Assembly (NCBI RefSeq): GCF_013401435.1
Contig: NZ_JACBGN010000002.1
Span: 1 to 64,000, forward strand
Source: Streptomyces sp. BR123
GTDB taxonomy: Bacteria > Actinomycetota > Actinomycetes > Streptomycetales > Streptomycetaceae
Direction of reading: 5' to 3'
Length of the DNA stretch: 64,000 bases
Below, one piece after another: positions 1,338-64,000 of the stretch. The translations under genes were made by a program, and so were the position numbers. The notes beneath the pieces were generated by a model. That model searched no databases, was not told the DNA's origin, and was given only the letters and a program-made list of their open reading frames with translations. Numbering within the stretch: the stretch's first letter is position 1; each line of letters begins with the position of its first letter.

Positions 1338-4300
1338 CGTCGGCGGCGGCGCCGACCGGGTGCCGCGGGAGGGCGGCCGCGGCAGCGGCGGCCTCGGAGC
1401 CGAGGAGCTCGTCCTTGAGGAAGCCGGCGAGGGCCGTGGGCGTCGGGTAGTCGAAGACGAGCGTGGCGGGCAGGCGGATGCCGGCGGCGGCGCCGAGCCG
1501 GTTGCGGAACTCGACGGCGGTGAGCGAGTCGAAGCCGAGGTCCTTGAAGGCGCGGCCGGGCTCGACCGCGTCGGGGGTGGCGTGGCCGAGGACGGCGGCG
1601 ACCTGGTCGCGGACCAGGTCCAGGAGCAGGGTGTCGCGCTCGTTCCCGGGGAGCCGGACGAGCTGCTCCACCAGCGGGGTTCCGGTGCCGGCGGCGGTGG
1701 TCTCGACGGCGCGGCGGGCCGTGGTGCGCACGAGGCCGCGCAGCAGGGCGGGGACCGTGCTCGCGTCGGCCTGGCGCAGCGGGGCGAGGTCGAGCTGCAT
1801 GGGGACGAGGTGGGCGTCGCCCGTGCGGTGCGCGGTGTCGAGGAGGGCGAGGCCCTCCTCGGAGGAGAGGCCGAGGACGCCGGAGCGCGTCATGCGGTCC
1901 TTGTCGGCGGTGTCCAGCTCGCCGGTCATGCCGCTGGCCTCGGCCCACAGGCCCCAGCCGAGGGAGGTGCCGGGCAGGCCGTGGGCCTGGCGGTGGCGGG
2001 CGAGGGCGTCGAGGAAGACGTTCGCGGCTGCGTAGTTGGCCTGGCCTGCGCCGCCGAAGGTGCCGGCGGCGGAGGAGAACAGGACGAAGTCGGCCAGGTC
2101 GAGCCGGCGGGTCAGCTCGTGCAGGTGCAGGGCGGCGTCCGCCTTGGGCCGCAGGACGCGGTCGACCCGTTCGGGGGTGAGGGCGGTGGTGATGCCGTCG
2201 TCGAGGACGCCCGCCGTGTGGATGACGGCGGTCAGCGGGTGTTCGGCCGGGATGCCGGCCAGGAGGGCGGCGAGTGCGTCGCGGTCGGCGGCGTCGCAGG
2301 CGGCGACGGTGACCTCGGCGCCCAGGGTGCGCAGCTCGGCGGCGAGTTCGGCGGCGCCGGCGGCGGCCTCGCCGCGGCGGCTGGTCAGGATCAGGCGGCG
2401 GGCGCCGCGGACGGTGACGGCGTGCCGGGCGACGAGGGCGCCCAGAGTGCCGGTGCCGCCGGTGACGAGGACGGTGCCCTCGGGGTTCCAGTCGGCGGGC
2501 ACGCTGAGGACGATCTTGCCGGTGTGGCGGGCCTGGCTGAGGTAGCGGAAGGCCTCGGGGGCCTGGCGCAGGTCCCAGCAGGAGACCGGGATCGGGTGCA
2601 GGGCGCCGGACTCGAAGAGGCCGAGGAGGGCGGTGAGCATCTCCTGGATGCGGTCGAGACCGGCCTCGGTGAGGTCGAAGGCCCGGTACGTGACACCGGG
2701 GTGGGCGGCGGCGACGTCCTGCGGGTCGCGGACGTCGGTCTTGCCCATCTCGACGAAGCGTCCGCCGCGCGGCAGCAGCCGCAGCGAGGCGTCGACGAAC
2801 TCGCGGGCCAGGGAGTCCAGGACGACGTCGACGCCGCGTCCGCCGGTGGCGGTGCGGAAGGTGTCCTCGAAGTCGAGGGTGCGGGAGGAGGCGATCCGGT
2901 CGTCGGTCAGGCCGAGTCCGCGCAGGGTGTCCCACTTGGCGGGGGCGGCGGTGGCGTACACGTCGGCGCCCCAGTGGCGGGCCAGCTGGACGGCGGCCAT
3001 GCCGACGCCGCCGGCCGCGGCGTGCACGAGGAGGGTCTCGCCCCGGCGGAGGCCGGCGAGGTCGTGGAGGGCGTAGTACGCCGTCATGAAGACGATCGGT
3101 ACGGCTGCGGCCTCGGCGAAGGTCCAGCCCTCGGGCATCGGCGCGATCATGCGGCGGTCGACGACGGCGAGCGGGCCGAACGCGCCGGGCAGCATGCCCA
3201 TGACGCGGTCGCCGGGGGCGAGGTCGGTGACGCCGGGGCCGGTCTCCAGGACGGTGCCGGCGCCTTCGGAGCCCATCAGGCCCGGGTCGCCGGGGTACAT
3301 GCCGAGGGCGTTGAGGACGTCGCGGAAGTTGAGGCCGGCGGCGCGTACGGCGACGCGGACCTGGCCGGGCTCCAGCGGGGCTTCGGACTCCGGGCTGGGC
3401 AGGAGGGTGAGGTGGTCGAGGGTGCCCTTGTCCTCGATGTCCATGCGCCAGGCGGAGCCGTCGGCGGGCGGGGTGAGCGGGGTGCCGGCCGGGACCCGGG
3501 CGAGGCGGGGGGCGTGGACGGTGCCGCGGCGGACCGCGAACTGCGGTTCGCCGGTGGCGAGGGCGGCGTCGAGCAGTCCGGGCAGGGTGTCGTCGTCGGT
3601 ACCGGTGGCGGTGCCGTCGAGGTCGGCGAGGACGAACCGGTCGGGGTTCTCCGCCTGCGCGGTCCGGACCAGGCCCCAGACGGGGGCGTGGACGGGGTCG
3701 GCGAGGTCCCAGTCGCCGTGGACGGCGACGGCGCCGCGGGTGACGAACACCAGGCGGGACTCGGCGAACCGGTCGTCGGCGAGCCAGCCCTGGACCAGGG
3801 CGAGGGCCCGGTGGGTCGCGGCCCGGACGGTGTCCGGGGTGAGCGCGCCCTCGGCGCCGACGGCGGCCGAGCAGGGGGCCAGGACGTACGCGGGGGCCGG
3901 GGCGCCCGCGTCGACGGCGGCGGCCAGGGCCGCCAGGTCGGCGTGGGTGCGGCCGGGCAGACCGGTGCCGTCGCCGAGGACGGCCCAGCCGTCGCCGGGC
4001 TGCTCGTCCGGGGTGCCGGTCGGCAGTGGCAGGGTGGCCCAGTCGATGCGGAACAGGGAGTCGTGGTGCGCGGTGCGGGCGGCGCCGGCCAGGCCGTCGG
4101 CGGAGACGGGCCGCACCGTCAGGCGCTCGACGGCGGCGACGGGCGCGCCGGTGGTGTCGGCGACCTGGAGGGAGAGGGTGTCCTCGCCGCCCGGGGTGAG
4201 GCGGACGCGCAGCGCGGCGGCGCCGACGGCGTGCAGGGACACGCCCCGCCAGGAGAACGGCAGCCCGGCCCCGCGGTCGCCGTCGGGGGACGGCTGGACG

Positions 4301-7300
4301 AAGGTGGCGTGCAGGGCGGCGTCGAGGAGGGCAGGGTGCAGACCGAACCGGGCGGCGTCGGCCTGCCGGTCGTCGGGCAGGGCCACCTCGGCGTACACGT
4401 CGTCGCCGAGGGTCCAGGCGGCCCGCAGGCCCTGGAAGACCGGGCCGTAGGCGAAGCCGCCCTGGCCGAGGTGCTCGTACAGGCCGTCGACGGTGACGGC
4501 CTCGGCGCCGGGCGGAGGCCAGGCGGTCAGGTCGAACGCGGGCCGCGGGGCGCCGGTCGCGAGGACGCCGGTGGCGTGGCGGGTCCACGGCTCGTCGTCG
4601 GCGGCGTCCGGGTCGCCGGAGTACAGGTCCAGGGTGCGGCGGCCGTCCCGGCCGGGGGCGCCCACCACGATCTGGAGGCGGACCGCGGCGTGCGGGGCCA
4701 GGAGCAGTGGGGCTTCGAGGGTGAGCTCCTCCAGCACGTCGCAGCCGGCCTGGTCGCCGGCCCGGACGGCGAGCTCGACGAAGGCGGTGCCGGGCAGCAG
4801 GACGGTGCCCATGACGGCGTGGTCGGCCAGCCACGGGTGGGTGTCGAGGGAGATCCGGCCGGTGAGCAGGAAGCCCTCGCCGTCGGCGAGCGGCACGGCG
4901 GCGCCGAGCAGCGGGTGGTGGGCTGCGCCCAGACCGGCCGACTCGACGTCCCCGACGAAGCCGGCGGGGGCTTCGAGCCAGAACCGGCGGCGTTGGAAGG
5001 CGTACGTGGGCAGGTCGGTGCGGCGGGCGCCGGTCGCGGCGAAGTACGCGCTCCAGTCGACGGGGACGGTGCGGGTGTGGAGGGCGGCGATCGCGGCGGC
5101 CAGCGCCTCGGTCTCGCCGCGGTCGCGGCGCAGGGCCGGGACGAACACGGCGTCGGTGCTGCTGTCGGTGTCGGTGTCGCTCAGGCAGTCGCGGCCCAGG
5201 CCCGACAGCACGCCCTGCGGGCCGAGTTCGAGGTAGGTGGTGACGCGCTCGGCGTCCAGGGTGCGGATGCCGTCGAGGAAGCGGACGGCCTCGCGGACGT
5301 GGGCGACCCAGTGCTCGGGGGTGCGCAGTTCCTCGCCCGCGACCTCGCCGGTGAGGTGGGTGACGACGGGGAGGGCGGGCGCGTGGTAGGTGAGGGAGGC
5401 GGCGACCTCGCGGAAGGCGTCGAGCATGCCGTCCATCAGCGGGGAGTGGAAGGCGTGGCTGACGGTGAGCCGCTTGGCCTGCCGGCCGCGTGCCTCGAAC
5501 TCGGCGGCGATCTCCAGCGCGAGGTCCTCGTCGCCGGAGATGACCACGGCGGAGGCGGAGTTGACGGCGGCGATGCCGATCCGGTCCTCCCGGCCGGCGA
5601 GCAGCGGCCGGACCTCGTCCTCGGTGGCGGCGAGCGCGATCATCGCGCCGCCTTCGGGCAGCTGCTCCATGAGCCGGCCGCGGGCGGCGACGAGCGTGCA
5701 CGCGTCGTCGAGGGACAGCACGCCTGCGACGTGCGCGGCGGTGATCTCGCCGATGGAGTGGCCGGCGACGAAGTCGGGGCGCACGCCCCAGGACTCGACG
5801 AGCCGGTAGAGCGCGGTCTCCAGGGCGAACAGGGCGGGCTGGGTGTAACCGGTTCGGTTGAGGAGTGCGCCGTCCTCGGCGAACAGGACGTCCTTGAGGG
5901 GCTGTTCGAGGTGCGGGTCCAGGGCCGCGCAGACCTCGTCCAGGGCGGCCGCGAACACGGGGTGGGCGGCGTACAGTTCGCGGCCGGTACCGGGGCGCTG
6001 GCTGCCCTGTCCGGTGAAGAGGACGGCGAGCCGGCCGTCGGAGGCGTCGTGCCGGACGAGCCGGGCGTGGTCGCGGCCCTCGGCGAGTGCGGCGAGCCCG
6101 GTGAGCAGTTCCTCGCGGCCGGCGGCGACGACGGCGGCCCGGCGGTCCAGGGCGGTACGGGTGGTGGCCAGCGAGTACGCCACGTCGGCGGGCGCCGCAT
6201 CCGGCCAGCCGGCGAGGTGGGCGGCGAGCCGGGCGGCCTGGGCGCTCAGCGCGTCGGGGGTCCGGCCGGACAGGACGAAAGGCAGCGGGGTGCCGGCGAG
6301 GACGACGGACTCGGGGGCGGAGGATTCGGGGGCGCCGGCTTCGGTGTCCCCGTCGGCGGGCGGCTGCTCGATGATGACGTGCGCGTTGGTACCGCTGACG
6401 CCGAAGGAGGATATGCCCGCGCGGCGCGGGCGGCCCGTTTCGGGCCACTGCGTCTGCTCGGTGAGGAGGGAGACCGCGCCGGCGGTCCAGTCGATGTGCG
6501 GGGACGGCTCGCCGATGTGCAGGGACGCCGGCAGGACGCCGTGGCGCATGGCGAGGACCATCTTGATGATGCCGGCGGCGCCCGCGGCGGCCTGGGTGTG
6601 GCCGATGTTGGACTTGATGGAACCCAGTCGCAGCGGCTGGTCCGCGGGCCTGTCCCGGCCGTAGGTTGCGAGCAGGGCCTGCGCCTCGATCGGGTCGCCC
6701 AGGGTCGTGCCGGTGCCGTGGGCCTCGACGGCGTCGACGTCGGCGGCGGTCAGACCGGCGTGGGCGAGGGCCTCTCGGATGACGCGCTGCTGGGACGGGC
6801 CGTTGGGGGCGGTGAGGCCGTTGCTCGCACCGTCCTGGTTGACGGCCGTGCCCCGGACGACGGCCAGCACCGGGTGGCCGTTGCGCCGGGCGTCGGAGAG
6901 CCGCTCTACGAGGATCATTCCGGCACCCTCGGCCCAGCCGGTGCCGTCGGCGTCGGCGGAGAAGGACTTGCAGCGGCCGTCGGTGGACAGGCCCCGCTGG
7001 CGGCTGAAGTCGATGAAGGTGTCCGGGGTGGACATGACGGTGACACCGCCGGCCAGCGCCATGTCGCACTCGCCGCTGCGCAGGGCCTGCGCGGCCAGGT
7101 GCAGGGCGACGAGGGAGGAGGAGCAGGCCGTGTCGATGGTGACGGCGGGTCCTTCGAGGCCGAAGGTGTACGAGATGCGGCCGGAGGCGACGCTGCCGGC
7201 GGTGCCGGTGCCGAGGTAGCCCTCCAGGCCCTCGGGGACGGCCGGGAGCCGGGTCAGGTAGTCGTGGTACATGACGCCCGCGAACACGCCGGTGCGGCTG

Positions 7301-10300
7301 CCGCGCACGGCGGCCGGGTCGATTCCGGCGCGTTCGAAGGCCTCCCAGGAGGTCTCCAGCAGGAGCCGCTGGTGCGGGTCCATGGCGAGGGCCTCGCGCG
7401 GGTTGATACCGAAGACGTCGGGGTCGAAGTCGGCGGCGTCGTGCAGGAATCCGCCCTCGCGGGTGTACGAGGTCCCGGCGCGGCCGGGGTCGGAGTCGTA
7501 CAGCGCGTCGAGGTTCCAGCCGCGGTCGGTGGGGAACGGGGAGATCGCGTCGACGGAGCCGGCGACGAGCTGCCACAACTCCTCGGGCGTGCTGACGCCG
7601 CCGGGGTAGCGGCAGGCCATGGCGACGATGGCGATGGGCTCGTCGGTGACGGCCGGGACGTGGGCGGTGGCGCCGGTGCCGCCCGCGGGCGCGGCCCGGT
7701 CGCCGAGGAGTTCGGTGCGCAGGAAGGCGGCGAGCGCGTTCGGGGTGGGGTAGTCGAAGACGAGGGTGGCGGGCAGCCGGACTCCGGTGGCCGATCCGAG
7801 GCGGTTGCGCAGTTCGACGGCGGTGAGCGAGTCGAAGCCGAGTTCCTTGAAGGCGCGGCCGGGGTCGACGGCGTCGGGGCCGGGGAAGCCGAGGACGGCG
7901 GCGACCTGGACGCGGACGGTGGCCAGCAGCAGCCGGTCGCGTTCGGCGGCTGTCAGCGGCAGCAGCCGCTCGGCGAGGCCGTCGGCCGGGGCGGGGCCCT
8001 GCGCGGCGGCGGTGCGGCGGGCGGCGGGCCGGACCAGGCCGCGCAGCAGCGGCGGGACCATGCTCGCGTCGGCCTGGCGCAGGGCGGCCAGGTCGAGGTG
8101 CATGGGGACGGCGGTCGCATCCCCGGTCTCGCGGGCGGTGTCCATGAGGGCGAGGCCCTCGGCGGAGGACAGTGCGGCGACGCCGGCGCGGGAGATCCGC
8201 TCCAGGTCGGTGTCGGCGAGGTCGCCGGTCATGCCGCTGCGTTCGGCCCACAGGCCCCAGGCGAGCGCGGTGGCGGGCAGGCCTTCGGCGCGGCGGCGCT
8301 GTGCGAGGGCGTCGAGGAAGGTGTTGGCGGCGGCGTAGTTGGCCTGGCCGGCCGCGCCGAGGGTGCCGGCGGCGGCGGAGAACAGCACGAAGGCGGCGAG
8401 GTCGAGGCTGCGGGTCAGCTCGTGCAGGTGGACGGCGGCGTCGACCTTGGCGGGCAGGACGTGGTCGATCCGCTCGGAGGTGAGCGCTTCGAGGATGCCG
8501 TCGTCGAGGACCCCCGCCGTGTGCACGACGGCGGTCAGCGGGTGCTCGGCCGGTACGGAGGCCAGCAGCGCGGCGAGCGCCTCGCGGTCGGCGGCGTCGC
8601 AGGCGGCGAGGGTGACCTCGGCGCCCAGCGCGCGCAGTTCCGCGAGGAGTTCGGGGGCGCCGGCGGCGGCCTCTCCGCGGCGGCTGGTCAGCAGCAGGCG
8701 GCGGACGCCGTGCGCGGTGACCAGGTGGCGGGCGACGAGCCCGCCGAGGGTGCCGGTGGCACCGGTGACCAGGGCGGTGCCGTCGGTGTCGAGCGGGCGG
8801 GCCTCCCGCCCTTCGGCTGCGGGGACGGCGGGGACGCGGGCGAGCCGGGGTGTGACGGCGCGGCCCTCACGGAGGGCGAGCTGCGCCTCGCCGGTGGCGA
8901 GTGCGGCGGGCAGGGCGCGCAGGGACTCCTCGCGGTCGTCGAGGTCGAGCAGGACGAACCGGTCGGGGTGTTCGGACTGGGCCGACCGCAGCAGGCCCCA
9001 CAGCGGGGCGTGCTCCAGGTCGGGCACGTCGGATCCGGCGGTGGTGGCGACGGCGCCGTGGGTGGTGAACACCAGTCGGCAGCCGGCGAAGCGGTCGTCG
9101 GCGAGCCAGGCCTGGGCCAGCTCCAGGGCGTGGTGCAGGGCGTCGGCGACGGCGGCGGGCAGCGCGGCATCGACCGGGGTGGCCGGCGCGCCGCCGACGG
9201 CGGGGCCGGACACGGGGACGACGACGGCCTGCGGCACCGGGGCCCCGGCCTCGACCGCAGCACCGAGGGCCGCGAGGTCGGCGTACGTGGCGGCCGTCGG
9301 CAGGACGCCGGTGAGGCGGGTGAGGCGGGAGCCGGCGGCGGCGTCGCCGAGCAGCGCCCACTGGCCGGGGGCGACGGTGGTGGCGGCCGGAAGGGGCAGC
9401 GGAGTCCAGTCGACGCGGAACAGCGCGTCGTGGAAGGCTGTGCGGGCGGCCCGGACCTGGTCGGGGCTGACGGGGCGGAGCAGCAGGGCGTCGACGGAGG
9501 CGACGGGCGCGCCGGTCTCGTCGGCGAGGTCGACGCAGACGGTGTCCCGGCCGGCGGGGGCCAGGCGGACGCGGACGGCGCGGGCGCCGACGGCGTGCAG
9601 GGCGACGCCGCTCCAGGAGAACGGCAGCCGGCCGTGCTCGGTGTCCTCCAGCAGGGAGCCCATGCCGACGGCGTGCAGGGCTGCGTCGAGCAGGGCCGGG
9701 TGCAGGCCGAACAGGGCGGCCTCGGCGTGGGCCTGCTCGGGCAGGCGGACCTCGGCGAAGACCTCGTCGCCGCGCTGCCAGGCGCCGGTCAGGCCCTGGA
9801 AGACGGGCCCGTAGGCGAAGCCGGTGCCGGTGAGGTACGTGTACAGGCCGTCGACGGGGAGGGCGGTGGCGCCCTGCGGCGGCCAGCTGGCCAGGTCGGT
9901 GGCGGTCCCCCGGCCGTCCCGGGCGGCGGCCGGGGCGAGGAGGCCGGTGGCGTGCCGGGTCCAGGCGCCTTCGCCCCAGGTGTCGTCGGCGGCGTCCTCT
10001 GGCCGGGAGTGCAGGGTGAGCGGGCGCCGTCCGTCGGCGTCGGGCGCGCCGACGGCGAGCTGGATCTGGATGCCGCCGTGCGGGGGCAGGACCAGGGGGG
10101 CTTGGAGGGTGAGCTCTTCGAGGAGTTCGCAGCCGGTGTGCTCGCCGGCCTGGAGGGCGAGTTCCACGAAGGCGGTGCCGGGCAGCAGCACGGTGTCCAT
10201 GACCGTGTGGTCGGCGAGCCAGGGGTGGGTGGCCAGGGAGAGGCGGCCGGTGAACAGGTGGCCGTCGCCGTCGGCCAGGGCGATGGCGGCGCCGAGCAGC

Positions 10301-13173
10301 GGGTGCTCGGCGGAGCCTATGCCGGCGGCGGTGACGTCGCCGGTCCAGGCGGTGGGCTGCTCGGGCCAGTACAGGCGGCGCTGGAAGGCGTACGTGGGCA
10401 GGTCGACGCGGGTGGCGCCGCGGCCGGCGAAGACGGCGGACCAGTCCACGGCGACGCCGTGGGCGTGGGCCCGGGCGACCGCGGCGGCGAACGCGGCCGG
10501 CTCGGGGCGGTCGGCGCGCAGGGCGGGCACGAACACGGCGTCGGCGTGGTCGGCGAGGCAGTCCTGGGCGAGGGCGGTGAGGACGCCGCCCGGGCCGACC
10601 TCGACGAAGGTGGTGACGCCGAGCGCGCCCAGGGCGCGTACGCCGTCGAGGAAGCGGACGGCCTCGCGGACGTGCCGCACCCAGTAGTCGGCGGTGCAGA
10701 TCTCCTCGGCGGTCACGGAGGCGCCGGTGAGGTTGGAGACGATCGGGATGACGGGCGGCGCGTAGGAGACGGCTTCGGCGGCTTCGCGGAACGCGTCGAG
10801 CATGCCGTCCATGAGCGGCGAGTGGAAGGCGTGGCTGACGGTGAGCCGCTTGGTGCGGCGGCCGCGGGCGCGCAGGGCCTCGGCGACCGCGCCGGCCGCC
10901 TCCTCGTCGCCGGAGACGACGACGGAGCGGGGGCCGTTGACGGCGGCGATGGACACCCGGTCGGTGAGGAGCGGGGTGACCTCGTCCTCGGTGGCCTCGA
11001 CGGCGATCATCGCGCCACCGGAGGGCAGGGCCTGCATCAGCCGGCCGCGGGCGGCGACCAGGGCGGCGGCGTCGGGGAGGGTGAAGACGCCGGAGACGTG
11101 GGCGGCGGCGAGTTCGCCGATGGAGTGCCCGATGAGGAAGTCGGGGGCGAGACCCCACTGTTCGAGCTGCCGGTGGAGGGCGACCTCGACGGCGAACAGG
11201 GCGGCCTGGGTGTAGGCGGTCTCGTCCAGCAGCGTCGCCTCGGGGGTGCCCTCGGCGGCGAACAGGACGTCGTACAGGGGGCGTTCGAGGTGCCGGTCGA
11301 GTTCGTCGCGTACGGCGTCCAGGGCGCGGGCGAAGCCCGGGTGGGTGGCGTACAGGTCGCGGGCCATGCCGGGGCGCTGGCTGCCCTGGCCGGTGAACAG
11401 GAAGGCGGTGTTGCCCTCGCCGACGGCGCCGACGACGGCGGTGGCGGGCTGCTCGCCGGCGGCGAGCGCGTCGAGGTCGGCGAGGAGTTCCTCCGCGCCG
11501 TCGGCGAAGAGGACGGCGCGGCGGTCCAGCGCGGCGCGGCCGGTGGCGAGGGAGAAGCCGAGGTCGGTCAGGGCCGCCTGGTCGGCGGCGAGTGCGGGGT
11601 GGGCGCGCAGGTGGCCGGCGAGGCGGCCGGCCTGGGCGCGCAGGCCCTCGTCGCCGTGGCCGGAGACGGGCAGCGGGACGGGCCCGGTGGCGCCCTCCGC
11701 AGCGGCGGCGGCTGTGGCGCCGGTGTTCGTGGTGCCGGTGCCGGTGTCCCCGGGTGCGGCGGGGGTGTCGGCGGGCGGGGCCTGCTCGATGACGGTGTGG
11801 GCGTTGGTGCCGCTGACGCCGAAGGAGGAGATGCCGGCGCGGCGCGGCTGTCCGGTCTCGGGCCAGGGCACGGCCCGGGCGAGGAGCTCGACGTCGCCGG
11901 TGGTCCAGTCCACGGCGGTGGACGGCCGGTCGATGTGGAGGGACTCGGGAAGGACGCCGTGCTGCATCGCGAGGACCATCTTGATGATGCCCGCGACGCC
12001 GGCGGCGGCCTGGGTGTGCCCGATGTTGGACTTGATGGAGCCGAGCCACAGCGGCCGGCCCTCGGCGCGGTTCTGGCCGTAGGTGGCGAGGATGGCCTGG
12101 GCCTCGATGGGATCGCCCAGTGTGGTGCCGGTGCCGTGCGCCTCGACGGCGTCGACCTGTGCCGGGGTGAGTCCGGCGTTGGTGAGGGCCTGCCGGATGA
12201 CGCGCTGCTGGGAGGGCCCGTTGGGGGCGGTGAGGCCGTTGGAGGCGCCGTCCTGGTTGATGGCGCTGCCGCGGACCACGGCGAGCACCGGGTGCCCGTT
12301 GCGGCGGGCGTCGGCGAGCTTCTCCACGAGGAGCATGCCGACGCCCTCGCCCCAGCCGGTGCCGTCGGCGCCCTCGGCGAACGGCTTGCACCGCCCGTCG
12401 GGGGCGAGTCCGCGCTGTCGGCTGAACTGCACGAAGGCGCGCGGGCTGGACATGACGGTGACACCGCCGGCGAGGGCCAGGGAGCATTCGCCGTTCCGCA
12501 GGGCCTGCACGGCGAGGTGCAGGGCGACGAGGGAGGAGGAGCAGGCGGTGTCGACGGTGACGGCCGGGCCTTCGAGCCCGAAGGTGTACGAGAGGCGGCC
12601 GGAGACGACGCTCGCCGCGTTCCCGGTGAGGAGGTACTGCTCGACGCCCTGCGGGACGCCGTCGCGCAGCAGGTCGGGGTAGTCCTGGCCGTTCGTGCCG
12701 ATGAACACGCCGGCCTTGCTGCCCCGCAGGGTGCCCGGATCGATGCCGGCGCGTTCGAAGGTCTCCCAGGAGGTTTCGAGCAGCAGGCGCTGCTGCGGGT
12801 CCATGCCGAGGGTCTCGCGCGGGCTGATCCCGAAGAAGGCGGCGTCGAACTCGCCCACCCGGTCGAGGAATCCGCCCTCCCGGGTGTACGAGGTGCCGCT
12901 GCGCCCGGGGTCGGCGTCGTACAGGGACTCGATGTCCCAGCCGCGGTCGGTGGGGAAGTCGGTGATGGCGTCCCGGCCGCCCGCGACCAGGTCCCACAGG
13001 TCCTCCGGCGACTCGATGCCGCCGGGGAACCTGCAGGACATGCCGACGATCGCGATGGGTTCGGGCTCCTGGGCCTCGACCTCGCGAAGGCGCTGCCGCG
13101 TCTGGTGCAGATCGGCCGTCACCCGCTTCAAGTAGCCGAGGATCTTGTCCTGATCCGACGCCTGACCCGCCAT
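1..13173 (-). CDS. Modular type I PKS, gene A (3' end cut by window); modules KS-AT-DH-KR-ACP, KS-AT-DH-ER-KR-ACP, KS...
   Basis: Cytosolic multienzyme adding extender units to an ACP-bound polyketide. 4391 codons are visible with no stop, so the C-terminus lies beyond position 1. The start is taken as ATG at 13173 because GGTGAGG lies five bases upstream; an in-frame ATG at 13188 has no ribosome site. Residues 1-35 form a coiled-coil docking helix ([20 protein letters not shown]). Module 1 (about 36-1820) is KS-AT-DH-KR-ACP. Module 2 (about 1844-3920) is KS-AT-DH-ER-KR-ACP, the only enoyl reductase in the window. Module 3 (from about 3946) shows a complete KS with Cys4120, then about 20 linker residues. 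Both ATs carry HAFH, the malonyl signature. The gene lies 60 bp downstream of B with no strong hairpin between them, so they are probably co-transcribed. A thioesterase may lie further left but is not seen. Confidence 0.97.
1390..7645 (-). other. Module A2: KS-AT(malonyl)-DH-ER-KR-ACP, fully reducing
   Basis: KS Cys2017; AT Ser2473 with HAFH at 2573-2576 (malonyl); DH His2785 in the canonical [10 protein letters not shown] and Asp2951 in DAALH. The ER spans about 3215-3550 (roughly 2520-3530 in DNA) and shows the NADPH motif [15 protein letters not shown] near 3383. KR has TGGTGTLG near 3570, LDD, FSSAAG and Tyr3714; ACP Ser3883. All reductive motifs are intact, so a saturated methylene unit is predicted. 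It is the only module in the window with an ER. Confidence 0.93.
7700..13066 (-). other. Module A1: KS-AT(malonyl)-DH-KR-ACP
   Basis: KS has DTACSSS with Cys211 plus HGTGT and SNIGH histidines. AT has GHSIGE (Ser684) and HAFH at 781-784, so malonyl-CoA is expected. DH has His989 in [10 protein letters not shown], where Asp replaces the usual Gly of HxxxGxxxxP, and Asp1163 in DAALH. About 220 residues separate the DH from the KR Rossmann motif, which is room for the KR structural half but no ER. KR has TGATGTLGG near 1470, an LDD motif (B-type) and Tyr1613; the usual catalytic Ser position (1600) is Ala in FSAAAG. ACP attachment is Ser1782 in GFDSL. Expected output is a trans alkene, if the DH and KR variants work. 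Confidence 0.9.
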
Positions 13174-13233
13174 TGGAACCTCACCCATGTTCGTCACAAA
13201 CCCTTGTGCTGCTACTGCCTGCTGTCCGCTGCG

Positions 13234-22899
<9,666 letters not shown>

Positions 22900-22967
22900 G
22901 TGCGTGGGCTCCATGCCAGAGAGGCGGTCGTACGGGTCGGTCTGACCGTGTGGTGGTGTGGTAGGGG

Positions 22968-39475: not shown

Positions 39476-55234
<15,759 letters not shown>

Positions 55235-55498: not shown

Positions 55499-58400
55499 TC
55501 AATAACGGCCGAGGCCCTTGTTGATAAAGGCGAACAGCTCCTCGTCGGTCGCGTCCTGGAGGTGCTCGACGCCGTCGGGGCCGGCGTCCGGGTCGTCTTC
55601 CGTGCCGCCGAGGCCGGGCGCGGAGCCGTCCGCGGCGGCCGTGCCGGTGTGTCGGGCGGCCGCGGCCGGGTCGTCGCCTGCGTTCCACTTGGCCAGCAGT
55701 GCCTGGAGCCGCATGGTCACCCGGGCCCGTACGACGTTGTCGGCGGTGCCCTGTTCGAGGACGGACTCCAGCCGGTCGAGTTCCTCCAGCAGCGGGGCCC
55801 CTCCGGCCACCGCATCGGGCACGATCCCGGCACGCAGGAAGGCGGCGACGGCGGCCGGGGTGGGGTGGTCGAAGACCAGGCTGGCCGGCAGCTTCAGCCC
55901 GCTGACCGCGCCGAGGCGGTTGCGCAGTTCGACGGAGGTGAGGGAGTCGAAGCCGAGCTCCTTGAAGGCGCGGCCGGCTTCGACGGCCGTCAGGTCGGCG
56001 TGTCCGAGGACGGCGGCGACGGCCGTGCGCACCAGGTCGAGCAGGAGGCGTTCCTGCTCGACCCCGGGCAGTCCGGCGAGCTGCCGGCCGATCGGTACTC
56101 CCCCGGTCAGGTCCTCGGCGGACTCCCGCTCCGCGCTCTCGATGACCCGCCGGGCTTCGGGGAGGTCCAGGAGCAGCGGCCGGGCCCGGTCGGCGGTGAA
56201 GGCGAGCGTGAACCGCTTCCAGTCCATGTCGGCCACGGTCAGGGTGGTCTCGTCGCGGTCCAGGGCGTGCCGGAGCGAGGCCAGGGTCTGCTCGGGCCGC
56301 ATGGCGAGGATGCCGTGGCGGCGCATCCGGTCGCCGGCGGCGCTGTCGTCCGGGTCCGCGCTGCCCCAGGGGCCCCAGGCGAGGGAGGTGGCGGGCAGGC
56401 CGACGGCCCGCCGGTACTCGGCGAAGGCGTCGAGGAAGGCGTTGCCTGGTGCCTGGTTGCCCTGTCCGGGGGCGCCGAAGGTGGCGGCGAAGGAGGAGAA
56501 GAGGACGAACGCGGACAGGTCGAGGCCGAGGTCGCGGGTCAGCTCGTGCAGGTGCCGGGTCGCGTCGACCTTGACCCGCAGGACGGCGGCCACCTGCTCG
56601 GGGGTGAGCGTCTCGATGACCCCGTCGTCGACGGCCGCGGCGGCATGGAACACCGCGGTGAGCGGCCGGTCCGCGGGGACGGCCGCGAGGAGTTCGGCGA
56701 GGGCGTCGCGGTCGCTGACGTCGCAGGCGGCGATCGTCACCTCGGCGCCGAGTGCGGTGAGTTCCTCGCGCAGTTCGGCGGCGCCGGGGGCGTCGGGGCC
56801 GCGGCGGCCGGCGAGGACGAGGTGCTCGGCGCCGTTCGCGGCGAGCCAGCGGGCCACGTGCGCGCCGAGCGCGCCCGTACCGCCGGTCACGAGGGTCGTG
56901 CCGCCGGGGCGCCAGTCCCGTACCGGCGGAGTTCCGTCGAGGCGGGCGCGGACGAGGCGTCGTACGAGGAGCCCGGAGGGCCGTACGGCGACCTGGTCCT
57001 CGGCGCCGTCTCCGGCCAGGACCCCGACGAGCCGTTCCAGGGACCGGTCGTCGGCCTGCGGGGGCAGGTCGACCAGGCCGCCCCAGCGGCCGCCCTGCTC
57101 CATGGAGGCGACGCGTCCCAGACCCCAGTGGAGGGCCTGCTCCGGGTCGTCGACCCGGTCGGAGCGTCCGGCGGCGACCGCGCCGCGGGTGACGCACCAC
57201 AGGGGTGCGGTGACGTCGGCGTCCCCGAGGGCCTGGGACAGCGCGAGTCCGGCCCCGAAGTGGTTGCCGTCGCCGAGGGCGAGGAGGGAGAGGACCCCGT
57301 TCGGGGCGGTCGCCGCGTCCTCGGCGGCCTCGATGGCGGCGGTGAGCGTGCCCCGGTCGGCCGCGTCGGCCGCCACGGTGAGGGTGCGGACCTCGGCGCC
57401 GCGGTCGGCGAGGGTGCGCAGGACGGCGGCGGCCGTGTCCCCGGCCGGACCGGACAGTGCCTCGGGCACGACGACCAGCCAGGTCCCGGACAGCCGGGTG
57501 GCGGTGGTGTCGGCGAGGGCCTTCCAGGTGATGCGGTAGCGCCAGCCGTCGACCGTGGACTCCTCACGGCTCTGCCGCCGCCAGGAGGAGAGGCCGGGCA
57601 GGACCGAACCGAGCGACCGGATCGCGTCGGGGGTGTCGAAGGCGAGGGCTTCGGCCAGGGCCGTGATGTCCTCGCGTTCGACGGCGTCCCAGAAGCGGGC
57701 GTCGGCCGCGCTCTCCGCCTGCAGCCCCTCCGGTTCGGCGGGGGCCGCCTCCGGCCAGTACCGCCGGGACTGGAAGGCGTAGGTGGGCAGCTCCGTACGC
57801 TGGGCGCCCGTGCCCGCGTACACCGCGTCCCAGTCGACCGCCACACCGCGGACCCAGGCCTCGGCGAGCGACAGCCAGAACCGCTCCAGGCCGCCCTCGT
57901 TGCGGCGCAGGGAACCGAGGACAGCGGCCTCACGGCCGGAGTCCTCCACCGTCTCCTGCATGCCGACGGTCAGCACCGGGTGCGGGCTGGACTCGACGAA
58001 CACGCCGAAGCCCTGGTCCAGAAGGGCACGGGTGGCGTTCTCCAGCTCCACCGTCTGCCGCAGGTTGCGGAACCAGTACCCCGCGTCCAGTTCCGGACCC
58101 TTGACCCACTCACCGGTGACGGTGGACAGGAAGGGAACCTCGGCGGCCCGGGGCTCGATCGGCGCCAGCAGCTCCGCGAGCTCCTCGCGCAGCAGGTCGA
58201 CCTGCGCGGAGTGCGAGGCGTAGTCCACCGCGATCCGCTTGGCCCGCACACCGTCGGCCTCGCAGGCGGCCAGGAACTCGTCCAGGGCCCGGACCTCACC
58301 CGACACCACCACCGACGACGGCCCGTTGGCGGCGGCAACGGAGATCCGCTCCTCACCCCACGCCGCAATCCGCTCCCGCACCTCACCGGCCGGCAGCGGC

Positions 58401-60481
58401 ACCGACACCATGCCGCCCAAACCGGCCAGCACCCGCCCGATCGCCTGACTCCGCAGAGCCACCACCCGCGCCGCATCCTCCAGGGACAGGATCCCCGCCA
58501 CACACGCGGCGGCGATCTCGCCCTGGGAGTGGCCGATCACGGCGCCGGGCCGCACACCCGCGGCGCGCCAGACGTCGGCCAGAGACACCATCACCGCGAA
58601 CAGGGCCGGCTGCACCACGTCGACGCGGTCGAGCGAGGGCGCGCCGTCGGCGCCCCGGAGCACGTCCACCAACGACCAGTCGGTGAAGGGCTCCAGCGCC
58701 TTCGCACACTCATCCACCCGGGCAGCAAACACAGGAGAGGACTCCAGCAGCGCCTCGGCCATGCCCACCCACTGCGAACCCTGCCCCGGGAACACGAACA
58801 CGGTCTTCCCACCGACCACGGACCCGGTCACCACACCCGCAGCCAGCCCGCCCGACGCCACCGCGGCAACACCGGCAGCGTGGTCGCCCAGCACCACGGC
58901 CCGGTGCTCCAGGCCGGCCCGGGTCGACGCCAGCGACCAGCCCACGTCCACCGGGTCCACCGAAGGCGCACCGGCCGCCCAGTCCGACAGCCGCTCCGCC
59001 TGCGCCCGCAGTGCGGCCGCGCTCTTGCCCGACAGCACCCACGGCACCACGGGCATCGCCGAGCGGGGCTCCGTCTCCGGGGCCTCCGCCTCCGCTTCCG
59101 GCGCCTGTTCCACGATCACGTGCGCGTTCGTGCCGCTGAAGCCGAACGCCGACACACCCGCGCGGCGCGGATGCGCCGTCTCGGGCCACGGCGTCCGCTC
59201 CGTGAGCAGGGCGACGGCGCCGGCCTCCCAGTCCACGTGCGGGGACGGCTCTTCGATGTGCAGGCTCTGCGGCAGCACGCCGTGCTGCATGGCCAGCACC
59301 ATCTTCATCACACCGGCGACACCGGCGGCGGCCTGGGTGTGCCCGATGTTGGACTTGACCGACCCGAGCAGCAGCGGCAGGTCCGCCGGGCGGTCCTGGC
59401 CGTACGTCGCGAGCAGCGCCTGCGCCTCGATCGGGTCACCGAGCGACGTACCCGTGCCGTGGGCCTCGACCGCGTCGACCTGGTCGGCGGAGAGCCGGGC
59501 GTTGGCGAGGGCCTGCCGGATGACGCGCTGCTGCGACGGACCGTTCGGGGCGGTCAGGCCATTGCTCGCGCCGTCCTGGTTGACGGCCGAGCCTCGGACC
59601 ACGGCCAGTACGGGGCGGCCGTTCCTCCGTGCGTCGGAGAGCCGCTCCAGCAGCAGCACGCCCACGCCCTCGGCGGGGCCGAAGCCGTCGGCTCCGGCCG
59701 CGAACGCCTTGCACCGGCCGTCCGCGGACAGTCCGCGCTGCTTGCTGAACTCGACGAAGAGGCCGGGGGTGGACATCACGTGCACGCCGCCGGCGACGGC
59801 CAGGGTGCACTCTCCCGCCCGGAGCGCCTGCACGGCCAGGTGGAGGGCGACGAGCGAGGCCGAGCAGGCGGTGTCGACGGTGACGGCCGGGCCTTCGAGG
59901 CCGAAGGCGTAGGAGAGCCGGCCGGACAGGACGCTGGAGGCGTTGCCGGTGCCGAGGTGGCCCGCGTAGTCGTCGGCCGCTTCCAGCAGCGGGGTCAGGT
60001 AGTCCGAGCCGTTCATGCCGACGAACACGCCGCACTGGCTGCCGCGGAGGCTGTTCGGGTCGATGCCGGCCCGTTCGAACGCCTCCCAGGAGGTCTCCAG
60101 CAGCAGCCGCTGCTGCGGGTCCATGGCCATGGCCTCGCGCGGGGAGATCCCGAAGAAGTCGGCGTCGAACGCGCAGGCGCCGCCGAGGAAGCCGCCCTCG
60201 CGGGTGGTGGAGGTGCCCTGCTCGTCGGGGTCGTCCGAGAACAGGTGGTCCAGGTCCCAGCCCCGGTCGGTGGGGAATTCGGTGAGGGCGTCGCCGCCGG
60301 AGGCGAGCAGGTCCCACAGTTCCTCGGGGGTTCGTACGCCTCCGGGGAAGCGGCAGCCCATTGCCGTGATGGCGATCGGCTCGTGGGCCTGGCTTTCGAT
60401 GTCCCGCAGGCGTCCGTACGCCTCGTCGAGATCCGTCGTGACCTTCTTGAGGTATTCGCGGAGCTTTGCTTCGTTCGCCAC
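55499..60481 (-). CDS. Single-module type I PKS, gene E: KS-AT(methylmalonyl)-KR(degenerate)-ACP
   Basis: 1660 residues, GTG start at 60481 preceded by AGGTGA seven bases upstream. Docking helix 1-32 ([20 protein letters not shown]), then KS with Cys206 in DTACSAS, AT with Ser652 in GHSQGE and YASH at 754-757 (methylmalonyl-CoA), KR, and ACP with Ser1513. There is no DH or ER. The KR keeps the NADPH motif TGGTGALG, but the catalytic Tyr is Gln1343 (NQAPGN where B1 has NYAPGN), LDD has become VDD, and the GGMAEG substrate-lid stretch of B1 is replaced by SADPDD. The protein therefore probably leaves its beta-keto group unreduced, giving an alpha-methyl ketone. The C-terminal docking tail, after a long Gly/Asp-rich spacer, ends [15 protein letters not shown]. 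Parts of the gene are near-identical to B1 and B2, so it looks like a recombinant of those modules. Confidence 0.96.
57265..57558 (-). repeat. AT-KR linker repeat, copy in E (294 bp identical to B2)
   Basis: Identical to 14961-15254. To its right (57559-57730) E and B2 differ strongly before becoming identical again in the AT, and to its left the KR resembles B1 instead. Confidence 0.88.
57731..58947 (-). repeat. Methylmalonyl-AT repeat tract, copy in gene E
   Basis: DNA coding the AT and its flanks that is nearly identical to tracts in B2 and B1. The right part (58710-58947) differs from B1 at one base that I could see; the left part (57731-57910) matches B2 essentially base for base. It codes YASH-type AT sequence. 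Confidence 0.85.
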
Positions 60482-60656: not shown

Positions 60657-63600
60657 TCAGCCCTGGCCGAACTTCTTGTCGATGAGCGCGAACAGCTCGT
60701 CGTCGCTCGCGTCCTCGATCTCGTCCGCGGTGGTCGTCGCGCCGTCGGTGCGGCGGGCGTCGTTCCACTGGGCGAGGAGGGTCTGGAGGCGCACCGCGAT
60801 GCGTGCGTGGGCCGCGTCGTCGCCGGCCGCCGCGGCCAGTTCCGCCGGGTCCAGCGAGGAGAAGGTGCTCTCCAGGCGGTCGAGTTCCTCCAGTACGGAG
60901 AGCTTCCGCTCTGCCGTGCCGTCCGGGGCGACCTCGTCCAGCAGGTGCCGGGCGAGGGCCGCCGGGGTCGGGTGGTCGTAGATCAGGGTGGCGGGCAGCC
61001 GGAAGCCGGCGGCCGCGCCGAGCCGGTTGCGGAGTTCGACGGCGGTCAGCGAGTCGAAGCCGAGCTCCTTGAACGCCTGCTCCTCTCCGATGGCCTCCGC
61101 CGACCTGTACCCGAGTACGGCGGCCGCCTGGCTGCGGACCAGGTCCACCACGGTCCGCTCCCGTTCGGCCGCCGGCACGCCGGCCAGCCGTTCGGTGAGC
61201 GTCTGGGCGCCGGTTCCGGTGGACGCGGTCGCGGCCGTGTCCGCCGCGCCGTTCGCGCCGGGGACCGGCGACGCCGTGCGCCGCTGCCGGACAGGTGTCC
61301 GGACCAGACCGCGGAACACGGGCAGGAGCCCGCCGTCCGCCGCCCGGGCCCGCAGGGTCGGAAGGTCGAGGCCGACCGGCAGCAGGACCGGCTCGTCGTC
61401 CCCGGCGGCAAGGGCGGCGTCGAAGAGGGCCAGGCCCTCCGCCGCCGACAGCGGGGTGACTCCGCCGCGTGCGGCGCGTTCCTGCTCCGCCTCGGTGAGC
61501 CGGCCCGCCATGCCGCGCTCCTCGGCCCACATGCCCCACACCAGGGACAGGGCCGCAAGCCCGCGGGCCCGCCGGTGCCGGGCGAGGGCGTCGAGGAACA
61601 CGTTCGCCGCGGCGTAGTTGGCCTGGCCTGCGGCGCCGAGGGTGCCGGCGGCGGCGGAGAACAGGACGAACGCCGACAGGTCGAGGTGACGGGTGAGCTC
61701 GTGCAGGTGCAGCGCCCCCTCCACCTTGGGCCGCAGGACCCGGTCGACGCGCTCGGGGGTGAGGAGGTCCACGATGCCGTCGTCCAGCACGGCCGCGGTG
61801 TGCACGACCGCCGTCAGCGGACGCTCGGCCGGTACGGACTCCAGGAGCGCGGCCAGCGCCTCCCGGTCGGCGACGTCGCACGCGGCCCAGGTGACCTCGG
61901 CGCCCAACGCGACGAGCTGGTCCGTGAGTTCGGGCGCGGTGTCGGTGTCGGCGCCCCGGCGGCCGGTGAGCAGCAGGTGCCGTACGCCGTGCTCGGCGAC
62001 CAGGTGGCGGGCGAGGAGGCCGGCGAGGCCGCCGCCGGCCCCGGTGACGAGGACCGTGCCGCGTGTGTCGATGCGGCCGGCCGGTTCACCGGTGGCCGCC
62101 GTCCGGGCGTCCGCCCGGGCCAGGCGGGGTGCGTACAGGGCGCCGCCGCGTACGGCCAGTTCGGGTTCGGCGGACGCGAGGGCGGCGGGCAGGGCCCGGG
62201 CGGAGGCCTCGGCGTCGTCGAGGTCGACGAGGACGAACCGGTCCGGGTGCTCGGTCTGTGCGGCCCGCAGCAGGCCCCATACCGGGGTGTGGGCGAGGTC
62301 GCCCGCCTCGATGTCCCCGTGGGCGGCCACCGCGCCGCGGGTGACGACGGCCAGGCGGGCACCGGCGAAGCGGCCGTTGTCCAGCCAGCCCTGCACGGTC
62401 GCGAGCACGCGGTGCGTCACCTCCCGCGCGTCCTGCGCGAGGCGGTCGGCGTCCGGTGCGGAGATGCCGGCGGTTCCGGTGGCGGCAGTGGCGGCGGGCG
62501 TCATGAACGGGACGACCACGGTGTCGGGCAGCGGCTGCTTCCCCGCCGCGACGGCCGCTTCCAACGCGCCGAGGTCCTCGTACGCGGCGGCGGGAACCCC
62601 CGCCCGCCCCAGCGCGGCACCCAGACCGGCCTGCGTGTCGGTGGCGGTGCCCGAGGACGCGATGACCGCGAGGGTCGCAGCAGCAGGGCGGGCCTGCGCC
62701 GCCGTACGCACCCAGTCGAGACGGAACAGCCCGTCCGGCGACGCTCCGTCCGGGGCCGCCGCGAACCGCTCGGCGTCGAGCTCGCGGGTCACCATCTCCC
62801 GGACGGACGCGACCGGCGCGCCCTGCTCGTCGGCCAGTTCGACGGACACGGTGCCGGAGCCGGCGCGGGCGGTGATCCGCAGGCGCAGGCTGTCCGCGCC
62901 GACCGCGTGCAGCGCCATCCCGCGCCAGGTGAGGGCTTCGCGGGCGGCGGAGTCGCCGGTGTCGGCAGTCGCCGCGAGCGCCTGGACGGCGGTGTCGAGC
63001 AGGGCCGGGTGCAGGGCGAATCCGCCCGCGGAGGCGCGCAGCCCGTCGGACAGCCGGGCCTGCGCGAAGACCTCCTCGCCCCGTACCCAGACACCGGTCA
63101 GGGTCCTGAGGGCGGGCCCGTGGTGGAGGCCCGCGGCCGCGAGCCGGTCGCGGACCGCGTCGACGGGGACCTCGTCGGCGTCGGCGGGCGGCCAGGGTGC
63201 GGTGCTGTGGGCCTCGGCGGGCCCACCGGCGCCCTCGGCCGCGTCCGCGGTGAGGAACCCGGTGGCGTGCCGGGACCAGGCCCCGCCGGACGGCCCGTCG
63301 CCCTCGCCCGCCTCCGTGCGGCTGTGTATCTCCACCGGGCGGCGGCCGGTGTCGTCGGCTCCGCCCACGGTGAGCCGGAGCTGTACGGCTCCGTCCTCGG
63401 GGAGGACGAGCGGCTCCTCGCCGGTCAGTTCCTCCAGGTGCCCGCAGCCGGCCTCATCGCCGGCCCGCAGCGCGAGCTCGACGAGGACCGCGCCCGGGAC
63501 GACCACCGAATCGGCCACGACGTGGTCGGCCAGCCACGGGTGCGTCCGGCGGGAGAGCCGGCCGGTGAACAGGAAGCCGCCGGTCCCGGGCAGTTCGACG

Positions 63601-64000
63601 GCGGCGCCGAGCAGCGGGTGCCCGGCCGCTGCGATGCCGAGCGAGGCGGCGTCCTCGGCCGCGGCGAAGGAGTCGACCCAGTAGCGCTCTCGCTGGAAGG
63701 CGTACGTGGGCAGGTCGACCTGCCGGGCGCCGGTGCCGGAGAAGTACGCCGTCCAGTCGACCGTCACCCCCTGGACGTGGGCCCGGCCGAGGGCGGCGGC
63801 GAGGGACTCGGCCTCCTGCCGGCCCTTGCGGAGCAGGGCCACGAAGACGGCGCTGTCGGTGCTGCCGTCGGCGGTCAGGCAGTCCTGGGCGAGCGCGGAC
63901 AGCACGCCGTCGGGCCCGAGTTCGAGGTACGCGGTGACGCCGGCGGCTTCCAGGGTGCGGACACCGTCGAGGAAGCGGACGGCCTCGCGGACGTGCCGGA
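60657..64000 (-). CDS. Modular type I PKS, gene F (5' end outside window): AT(tail)-DH-KR-ACP and docking tail
   Basis: The frame is open to the right edge and enters inside an AT, whose visible end [13 protein letters not shown] matches the malonyl-type ATs of C and D, not the methylmalonyl ATs of B and E; HAFH itself is outside. DH: His codon at 63522-63524 in [10 protein letters not shown] (Asp instead of Gly) and Asp codon at 62994-62996 in DTAVQ; the usual YGPAF reads [16 protein letters not shown], where the third conserved Gly of the NADPH motif is Ala, LDD, FSAAAG (Ala at the catalytic Ser position) and Tyr at 61614-61616 in NYAAAN. ACP Ser codon at 61050-61052. The C-terminal docking tail ends [15 protein letters not shown]. 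Predicted output is an alkene conjugated to the ketone left by E, with reduced certainty because of the motif changes. The number of upstream modules in this gene is unknown. Confidence 0.95.
60930..64000 (-). other. Last module of F: ...AT(malonyl-like, partial)-DH-KR-ACP
   Basis: Approximate DNA limits: AT tail 63790-64000, DH 62800-63700, KR 61500-62750, ACP 60930-61160. The KS and most of the AT lie beyond the window. No ER fits: the DH end and KR Rossmann motif are separated by only about 230 residues. Confidence 0.88.

Follow-up and report, generated by a model that had tools for sequence, protein, structure and literature searches.

Gene E is a polyketide synthase (PKS) gene on the minus strand of the window, by which we mean the whole stretch of 64,000 nucleotides analysed here, the first 64 kb of a contig of 103,249 bases (NZ_JACBGN010000002.1) from Streptomyces sp. 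BR123. Its ketoreductase (KR) domain has Gln in the place of the catalytic Tyr. The explanation that we prefer as a whole, and consider quite probable, is that this domain is a non-reducing KR (KR0) derived from a B2-type KR, that it leaves a ketone in the chain and that it probably acts as a C2-type epimerase. Gene E and its parts are as follows.

55499..60481, minus strand: gene E, single-module PKS subunit of 1660 aa with the predicted order ketosynthase (KS), acyltransferase (AT), KR0, acyl carrier protein (ACP); open reading frame (ORF) and domain search
60392..60478, minus strand: N-terminal docking domain; Pfam PF08990
59102..60382, minus strand: KS with the gatekeeping-loop motif MNGS (hydroxyacyl-like); domain search and motif reading
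57839..58801, minus strand: AT with motifs GHSQG and YASH, methylmalonyl type by these motifs; domain search and motif
56915..57544, minus strand: KR structural subdomain, limits approximate; lies between the AT and the KR catalytic subdomain
56138..56902, minus strand: KR catalytic subdomain, predicted to be redox-dead and C2-like; profile, alignment, orthologues and model
56864..56887, minus strand: NADPH motif TGGTGALG (residues 1199-1206) of the KR, intact; sequence reading
56624..56632, minus strand: VDD in the place of LDD (residues 1284-1286); alignment
56570..56572, minus strand: catalytic Lys1304, retained; alignment
56492..56494, minus strand: catalytic Ser1330, retained, His in 10/21 orthologues; alignment
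56453..56455, minus strand: Gln1343 (CAG) for the catalytic Tyr; alignment
56447..56449, minus strand: Pro1345, the P motif of the B2 type, retained; alignment
56336..56365, minus strand: degenerate lid loop (residues 1373-1382), GGMAEG lost; alignment
56315..56317, minus strand: His1389, H motif of the B2 type, closing the lid helix; alignment
55826..56044, minus strand: ACP, GFDSL intact; domain search and motif

Besides these domains, the gene E product carries a dimerisation element. The active-site motifs are all there: TACSA in the KS, GHSQG and YASH in the AT, which we take to indicate methylmalonyl specificity, and GFDSL in the ACP. Gene E would be a single extension module adding a methylmalonyl unit. 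Its KR matches Pfam PF08659 at 205.9 bits (cut-off 22.6), and Asn1347 is present beside Lys1304, Ser1330 and the NADPH motif.

The KRs of this genome were aligned in 28 rows, one of them truncated, from contigs C222 (which carries the window), C716, C278 and C245; KRs on further contigs were left out. In the catalytic-Tyr column Gln was found in gene E alone, and the 27 other KRs all have Tyr. The initial annotation, made from the letters of the window, had pointed to Gln1343 in the place of Tyr, to VDD for LDD, to the loss of GGMAEG and to an intact NADPH motif and ACP, and the alignment and the motifs TGGTGALG and GFDSL confirm each of these observations. It had also read the other KRs of the window as NYAPGN or NYAAAN; they do have Tyr throughout, and two of them read NYAAGN. 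The nearest relative of the gene E KR in the genome, 83% identical, lies in the same window and differs from it in the 22-residue stretch of the lid:

18535..19302, minus strand: paralogous KR with intact Tyr, LDD and lid, in the first module of the gene at 13234-22914; alignment

Among solved KRs, the nearest relatives by sequence are Lsd14 and EryKR1, both of which we take to be epimerizing KRs. When the gene E KR is aligned with these characterised domains, as the initial annotation had proposed, Gln1343 faces their Tyr. Of the tetrad Tyr-Ser-Lys-Asn the gene E KR thus lacks the Tyr and has the other three residues. All reducing KRs are reported to share this tetrad (PMC5331325), and a Tyr to Phe mutation has served to make reduction-deficient PKS controls (PMC12636015). 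From the lost Tyr we infer that the protein does not reduce: the gene E KR is almost certainly redox-dead, with a ketone kept in the antifungal product. It is highly improbable that it still reduces, with Gln, Lys and a bound water standing in for Tyr and a hydroxyl at C31. The NADPH motif, Lys, Ser and Asn are intact, as a live reductase would have them, but according to PMC5331325 all reduction-active PKS KRs have the complete tetrad, and the lid and LDD are loosened in the orthologues of the gene E KR (hereafter E-type KRs) and not in the paralogue.

Conservation was followed in a set of 34 rows: the gene E KR and its closest paralogue from 13 genomes (this one and 12 others, the 13 of 392 genomes of the genus that match at an E-value of 1e-100 or better), plus the E rows of eight further named genomes. 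Rows were labelled E-type or paralogue from ORF length and not from the motif, and nine rows with cut ORFs were checked by context: six Gln rows end 295-313 residues past the motif, as a single module would, and three Tyr rows continue without a stop for at least 557 residues past it. The catalytic-Tyr column reads Gln (CAG) in 21/21 E-type KRs and Tyr (TAC) in 13/13 paralogous KRs. In a tree of the 34 rows a single branch (support 98/94) separates the E-type rows from the paralogues. The same branch was recovered from 33 rows, after removal of the LDD, Ser-Gln and lid columns and of the truncated row, with a support of 93/91, just under the starred level; the root of these trees is not known. 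Most simply, the conversion of Tyr1343 to Gln, and with it to a KR0, would have happened once, before the E-type clusters diverged. Fixed differences between E-type and paralogue KRs are four in 256 shared columns, Y1343Q, V1391I, S1430A and G1431D (20 E and 13 paralogue rows). Among the columns released in the E-type KRs are two of LDD, Ser1330 and the lid loop (mean entropy 1.12 vs 0.17), and the paralogue is not loosened; the stretch 1326-1350 around the Gln stays tight in the E-type KRs (entropy 0.16). In three of the 13 genomes (G000, G035 and G172) the paralogue from the same genome is closer to the E KR than are the E rows of the 12 other genomes. Within-genome homogenisation of the two KRs was considered, and no inference is drawn from it; the trees still part E from paralogue.

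In the 13 genomes with both KRs, the ratio of nonsynonymous to synonymous substitution rates (dN/dS) is 0.24 for the E KR and 0.18 for the paralogue, and dN is higher in the E KR in 60/78 genome pairs. In nine E genes of full length, the KR has a dN/dS of 0.29 in its catalytic and 0.44 in its structural subdomain, the KS 0.20, the AT 0.18 and the ACP 0.17. Judged from these ratios, the E-type KR is under purifying selection, somewhat less constrained than the neighbouring domains. The initial annotation had spoken of decay confined to the KR. This is not supported: since Gln stands in every E orthologue examined and selection is purifying (dN/dS about 0.24-0.29), we regard the Gln as an old and kept state. 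A recent random decay in this strain only is scarcely conceivable. The VDD and the exact lid sequence are limited to part of the E-type family, as such an event would have it, but Gln in 21/21 orthologues on one side of one branch refutes it for the Tyr position, and TAC to CAG takes two base changes.

The catalytic Ser lies 13 residues before the Gln. The E-type KRs with His for this Ser are L122, L125 and L136-L143; in the three of these rows that were displayed, IED also stands for LDD. With Gln and His together the active site is doubly altered, and a whole clade conserves it. At a guess, this clade may belong to clethramycin or mediomycin clusters. In a wider tally of the Tyr column, 179 KR matches on 80 loci read Y 158, Q 10, F 3, G 2, E 1, W 1 and unaligned 4; the loci were picked by similarity to the E KR, so that the tally says nothing on the general frequency of Gln. 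Nine of the ten Gln KRs are E orthologues. The tenth lies outside the E family, in Streptomyces griseocarneus (L080, ORF 3-1670); it reads AQAAGD, is degenerate, has its Asn changed as well and may be an independent loss of Tyr to Gln. The nearest named E KR is that of S. lavendulae CCM 3239 (90%), in which the E gene (L042: 2375-4321 and 3895-7407) has a frame change inside the AT, either a sequencing error or a broken gene.

From the second gene onwards, the PKS genes of the contig have the same order and the same modules as the cluster of Streptomyces mashuensis JCM 4059, in which nine genes encode 27 modules and a terminal thioesterase (TE). In this genome, where the contigs are not joined, parts of the first PKS gene lie on C245, C278 and C222, and parts of the eighth on C222 and C716. 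The gene at window 1-13233 is cut after a KS by the start of the contig; the matching AT opens C716, where a TE ends the line. In S. lavendulae CCM 3239 the first gene has seven KRs and the whole cluster 29, so that, read against it, we count seven modules in the first gene here and a presumed total of 28. The last PKS gene has two modules here and three KRs in S. lavendulae.

Our best reading is that gene E sits in the PKS of a giant linear aminopolyol polyene of the neotetrafibricin, linearmycin and clethramycin kind. The neotetrafibricin cluster of Streptantibioticus rubrisoli is alike in the modules from E on, apart from one collapsed gene, in the Gln KR and in the KS motif after E; it has 27 modules and a rhamnose, whereas the presumed 28 here include an extra module in the first gene. 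The clusters of clethramycin and mediomycin (S. malaysiensis, S. mediocidicus) have 27 modules in nine subunits, as in S. mashuensis, and clethramycin has a sulfated C29 hydroxyl (PMC5704753). The linearmycin cluster (Streptomyces sp. Mg1, S. nojiriensis) has nine PKS genes and makes a linear polyene (PMC8466323). Fourteen modules come after E both here and in S. mashuensis. Counting from the carboxyl, we infer that the methyl lies at C30, the keto carbon at C31, the hydroxyl of the next module at C29, the carbon of the previous module at C33 and a pentaene at C18-C27. Without the Tyr acid, the beta-keto group would stay unreduced and give the keto at C31 beside the methyl at C30, and the next module would make the C29 hydroxyl. 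The ketone had been placed next to the polyene half of the product; by this module count C31 is parted from the pentaene by C28-C30.

The formula of a family product bears on the ketone. Neotetrafibricin A of S. rubrisoli Inha501 is reported with m/z 1226.73, matching [C67H104NO19]- (PMC8312574), and the I-NTF aglycone with m/z 1082.66 and C61H95NO15, called 'putative' by the authors (PMC9421130). The cluster of Streptantibioticus rubrisoli DSM 42083 has the module content of S. mashuensis, except for a seventh gene with one module (L147, contig C9 34081-38970). In the counterpart this is a two-module gene with a Tyr-Pro KR, and a contig of 3.5 kb (L152) holds a KR(Tyr-Pro)-ACP-KS stretch; the one-module form seems to be an assembly collapse. 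We counted 27 modules, 3 methylmalonyl ATs, 16 dehydratase (DH) domains, 14 of them with YGP, and one enoylreductase (ER) with GGVG. A product of 27 modules with three methyls accounts for the C61 of the published formula. If the starter is a C4 amino unit and KR13 does not reduce, the predicted aglycone is C61H95NO15 ([M+H]+ 1082.677), as published; a live KR13 would give C61H97NO15 (1084.693). Enumeration gave three solutions, each with 14 dehydrations: 26 KRs and 1 ER, 27 KRs and 0 ERs, or 25 KRs and 2 ERs. Since several combinations fit, the neotetrafibricin formula supports the ketone and does not alone prove it. Together with the lost Tyr it lends support, unless the ER is inactive, to the alpha-methyl-beta-keto chain predicted earlier for module E. 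For BR123 itself, taking 28 modules, 14 dehydrations, one ER and no tailoring, the aglycone in its amino form is predicted as C63H99NO16, with [M+H]+ 1126.704 for a dead KR and 1128.719 for a live one; of the 14 DHs, one is assumed from the VMYH motif of the KS that follows, its own fragment at a contig end showing no DH.

Several points weigh against so direct a use of the formula. It is equally met by a live KR13 and a dead ER, which a reducing gene E KR would require, though the ER looks intact: it has GGVG, and the KS downstream of it has a motif of its own, QMHN. Moreover, the strain of the formula (Inha501) is not that of the cluster (DSM 42083), the S. rubrisoli assembly contains the collapsed gene, and the aglycone is only 'putative'. 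Two other comparisons were set aside. The masses of clethramycin and mediomycin, compared by hand with a 27-module prediction, were not decisive, as hydroxylations and methyl counts are not fixed; linearmycin A (C64H101NO16) can be explained by 28 modules with one keto, 4 methyls and one ER, but other combinations fit as well, and it is not used as evidence.

The environment of the ketone was read from the preceding DH and from the KS domains on either side of the KR:

62883..63641, minus strand: DH of the preceding module (end of gene F), HGP for YGP, probably inactive; alignment
53858..55135, minus strand: KS of the following module (gene D), motif TSSH; KS loop motif

YGP is described as the motif of active DH domains (PMC5704753). 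The DH before E has HGP in its place in all eight clusters compared (this genome, S. mashuensis, S. rubrisoli and five further genomes). In S. mashuensis the catalytic Asp is lost too (motif LLT); in this genome the His and the Asp-containing motif LLD are retained. DH activity was judged on YGP and the Asp motif only; in most of the DHs that at first seem to lack the His, the alignment has it in place, with Asp for the Gly. For KS domains, the loop motif VMYH is reported to go with enoyl and TNGQ with D-beta-hydroxy substrates (PMC11321453). The KS of E reads [MVI]N[GA]S in 11/11, nearer to TNGQ than to VMYH. Given a DH with HGP and a hydroxyacyl-like KS motif, a C33 hydroxyl rather than an enone is expected beside the ketone from these sequences; the preceding module, with its DH apparently dead, would leave that hydroxyl. 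The KS after E reads TS[SN]H in 15/15 clusters, and among 78 KSs of three clusters this motif occurs only in the three after E, which is consistent with a distinct substrate class.

The initial annotation had predicted an enone beside the polyene half, formed with an alkene from gene F, and the DH and KS motifs do not bear it out. That the last DH of gene F makes a C32-C33 double bond is very unlikely. A DH domain is there before E, and here it keeps His and LLD; however, it lacks YGP in all eight clusters, S. mashuensis has LLT, and the KS of E does not have VMYH. The formula, too, wants 14 dehydrations, the number of DHs with YGP. Exceptions to the DH and KS motif rule leave some doubt as to which 14 act: in all three clusters SNxQ stands in the KS that follows module 9 (module 10 here), although the DH of that module has YGP. 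With a dead DH in module 9, the formula could be reached only if module 7 or module 12 had a live one. The S. rubrisoli DHs without YGP are those of modules 7 and 12, that of module 7 also having Tyr for His, and the KS after module 7 has neither a VMYH-like nor a TNGQ-like motif.

Two DHs outside the window are recorded here in their own right. The first DH of gene F (contig C222 ~77370-78119; L004 17370-18119) has YGP and Asp intact and is followed by a KS with SNxQ, which is unexplained; SNxQ after this DH is also found in S. mashuensis and S. rubrisoli. The first module of the gene at contig C222 80904-91409 (KR at 86475) has a DH without YGP here and in both of these species, with Tyr for the catalytic His in S. 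rubrisoli.

All E-type KRs carry marks of the B2 type, that is, of KRs that epimerize and reduce. Its fingerprints are a P after the catalytic position, an H ending the lid helix and a Gln before the VLR-K stretch (PMC11228615). The Pro two residues past the Gln and the His of RRHG are present in 21/21 E-type KRs, the Gln(3)-to-Lys stretch in the 20 rows tabulated and visibly in the 21st, and the NADPH motif TGGTGxLG in 20/20 rows reaching that stretch. The gene E KR would therefore descend from a B2-type KR. An AlphaFold model of the KR catalytic subdomain, built with 44 sequences, has a mean predicted local distance difference test (pLDDT) score of 88.6, and only lid residues 184-188 fall below 50 as a segment; a model of the whole KR with 8 sequences was poor (mean pLDDT 53.5) and was discarded. 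The accepted model matches the best PKS KRs (amphotericin, erythromycin) with Z of about 34 and the C2-type structure 3qp9 (PikKR3) with 28.1 over 244 residues, so that the KR fold of gene E looks intact in the model.

We lean towards C2-type epimerase activity for the gene E KR. It is most likely kept for binding the beta-ketoacyl-ACP and epimerizing the C30 methyl, with Gln as a hydrogen-bond donor to the keto oxygen. DEBS KR3 and PikKR3, both C2-type, are likewise non-reducing KR domains that epimerize (PMC5331325), and PikKR3 shares the KR fold. A survey published in 2024 and covering 1,762 KRs finds Tyr in most KRs of the C2 type and Gln, a possible hydrogen-bond donor to the keto group, in some (PMC11228615). 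The Gln-bearing KRs of that survey resemble the gene E KR in the Gln, the retained Lys and the similarity to B2, and may include members of the E-type family themselves. Traits of the C2 type found in gene E are the A2/B2 likeness with Lys retained and the Gln at the catalytic position. A further C2 trait, an unreduced methylmalonyl module, would agree with YASH and GHSQG of the AT, with the lost Tyr and with the formula of the relative, which has one other plausible solution.

Other observations count against an epimerase. The C2-type trait of a mutated NADPH site, common and not strict, is absent, TGGTGALG being intact; most C2-type KRs retain Tyr and have a likely damaged NADPH site (PMC11228615), the reverse of the gene E KR with its Gln and intact motif, which is nearer in sequence to EryKR1 and Lsd14. 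Mutating the Tyr or the Ser of natural C2-type KRs cost them much of their epimerase activity (PMC5331325), and in 10/21 E-type KRs the catalytic Ser is His. LDD and the lid are loosened in the E-type KRs, and the mean dN of the E KR is 1.35x that of the paralogue.

These points give weight to a C1-type KR, dead for both reduction and epimerization and kept as a structural element only, for ACP docking or spacing; the ketone would be the same, with the C30 configuration set by the KS. We take this as a serious alternative, somewhat short of an even chance. The importance of both Tyr and Ser for epimerase activity (PMC5331325) speaks for it, as do the drift of LDD, the lid and, in 10/21 rows, the Ser, and a dN/dS above that of the paralogue (0.24 vs 0.18) and of KS, AT and ACP (0.29 vs 0.20, 0.18 and 0.17). 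Against it, diverged orthologues retain the Gln, the Lys and the Asn, both the P and the H motif, and the NADPH motif, an idle site is not expected to hold one exact replacement, and Gln is on record in C2-type KRs (PMC11228615). The C2-type reading can be carried further, as a tentative proposal that we rate below even: the E-type KR would serve for epimerization only, with Gln in the hydrogen-bond donor role of Tyr and with the NADPH site retained, one clade (10/21) would have a His-Gln-Lys site without redox chemistry, and the next KS would have co-evolved TS[SN]H for the alpha-methyl-beta-keto product. Altogether, our best reading is a conserved C2-type KR0 with a ketone at C31, a methyl at C30 and hydroxyls at C29 and C33.

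Earlier papers already describe both KR0 domains and C2-type KRs with Gln, and the switch to Gln seen here is conserved and of a known kind. In literature searches on the linear-polyene family and on Gln-type redox-inactive KRs, none of the titles and abstract openings listed names the Tyr-to-Gln change in an E-type module, and we do not claim its absence from print. Two details are less expected, the clade with His for Ser and the motif TS[SN]H. For the product, the enone prediction is corrected, and a sequence rule for ketone placement in giant linear polyenes is suggested: NQAPGN in a KR together with TS[SN]H in the next KS. In KRs of the short-chain dehydrogenase/reductase (SDR) fold, Tyr and Ser have been implicated in both reduction and epimerization (PMC5331325). 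For the question of how such KRs epimerize without reducing, the E-type KRs are a ready test set: Gln stands in 21/21, with Ser or His beside it, and the same assembly line offers a paralogue that has the Tyr.

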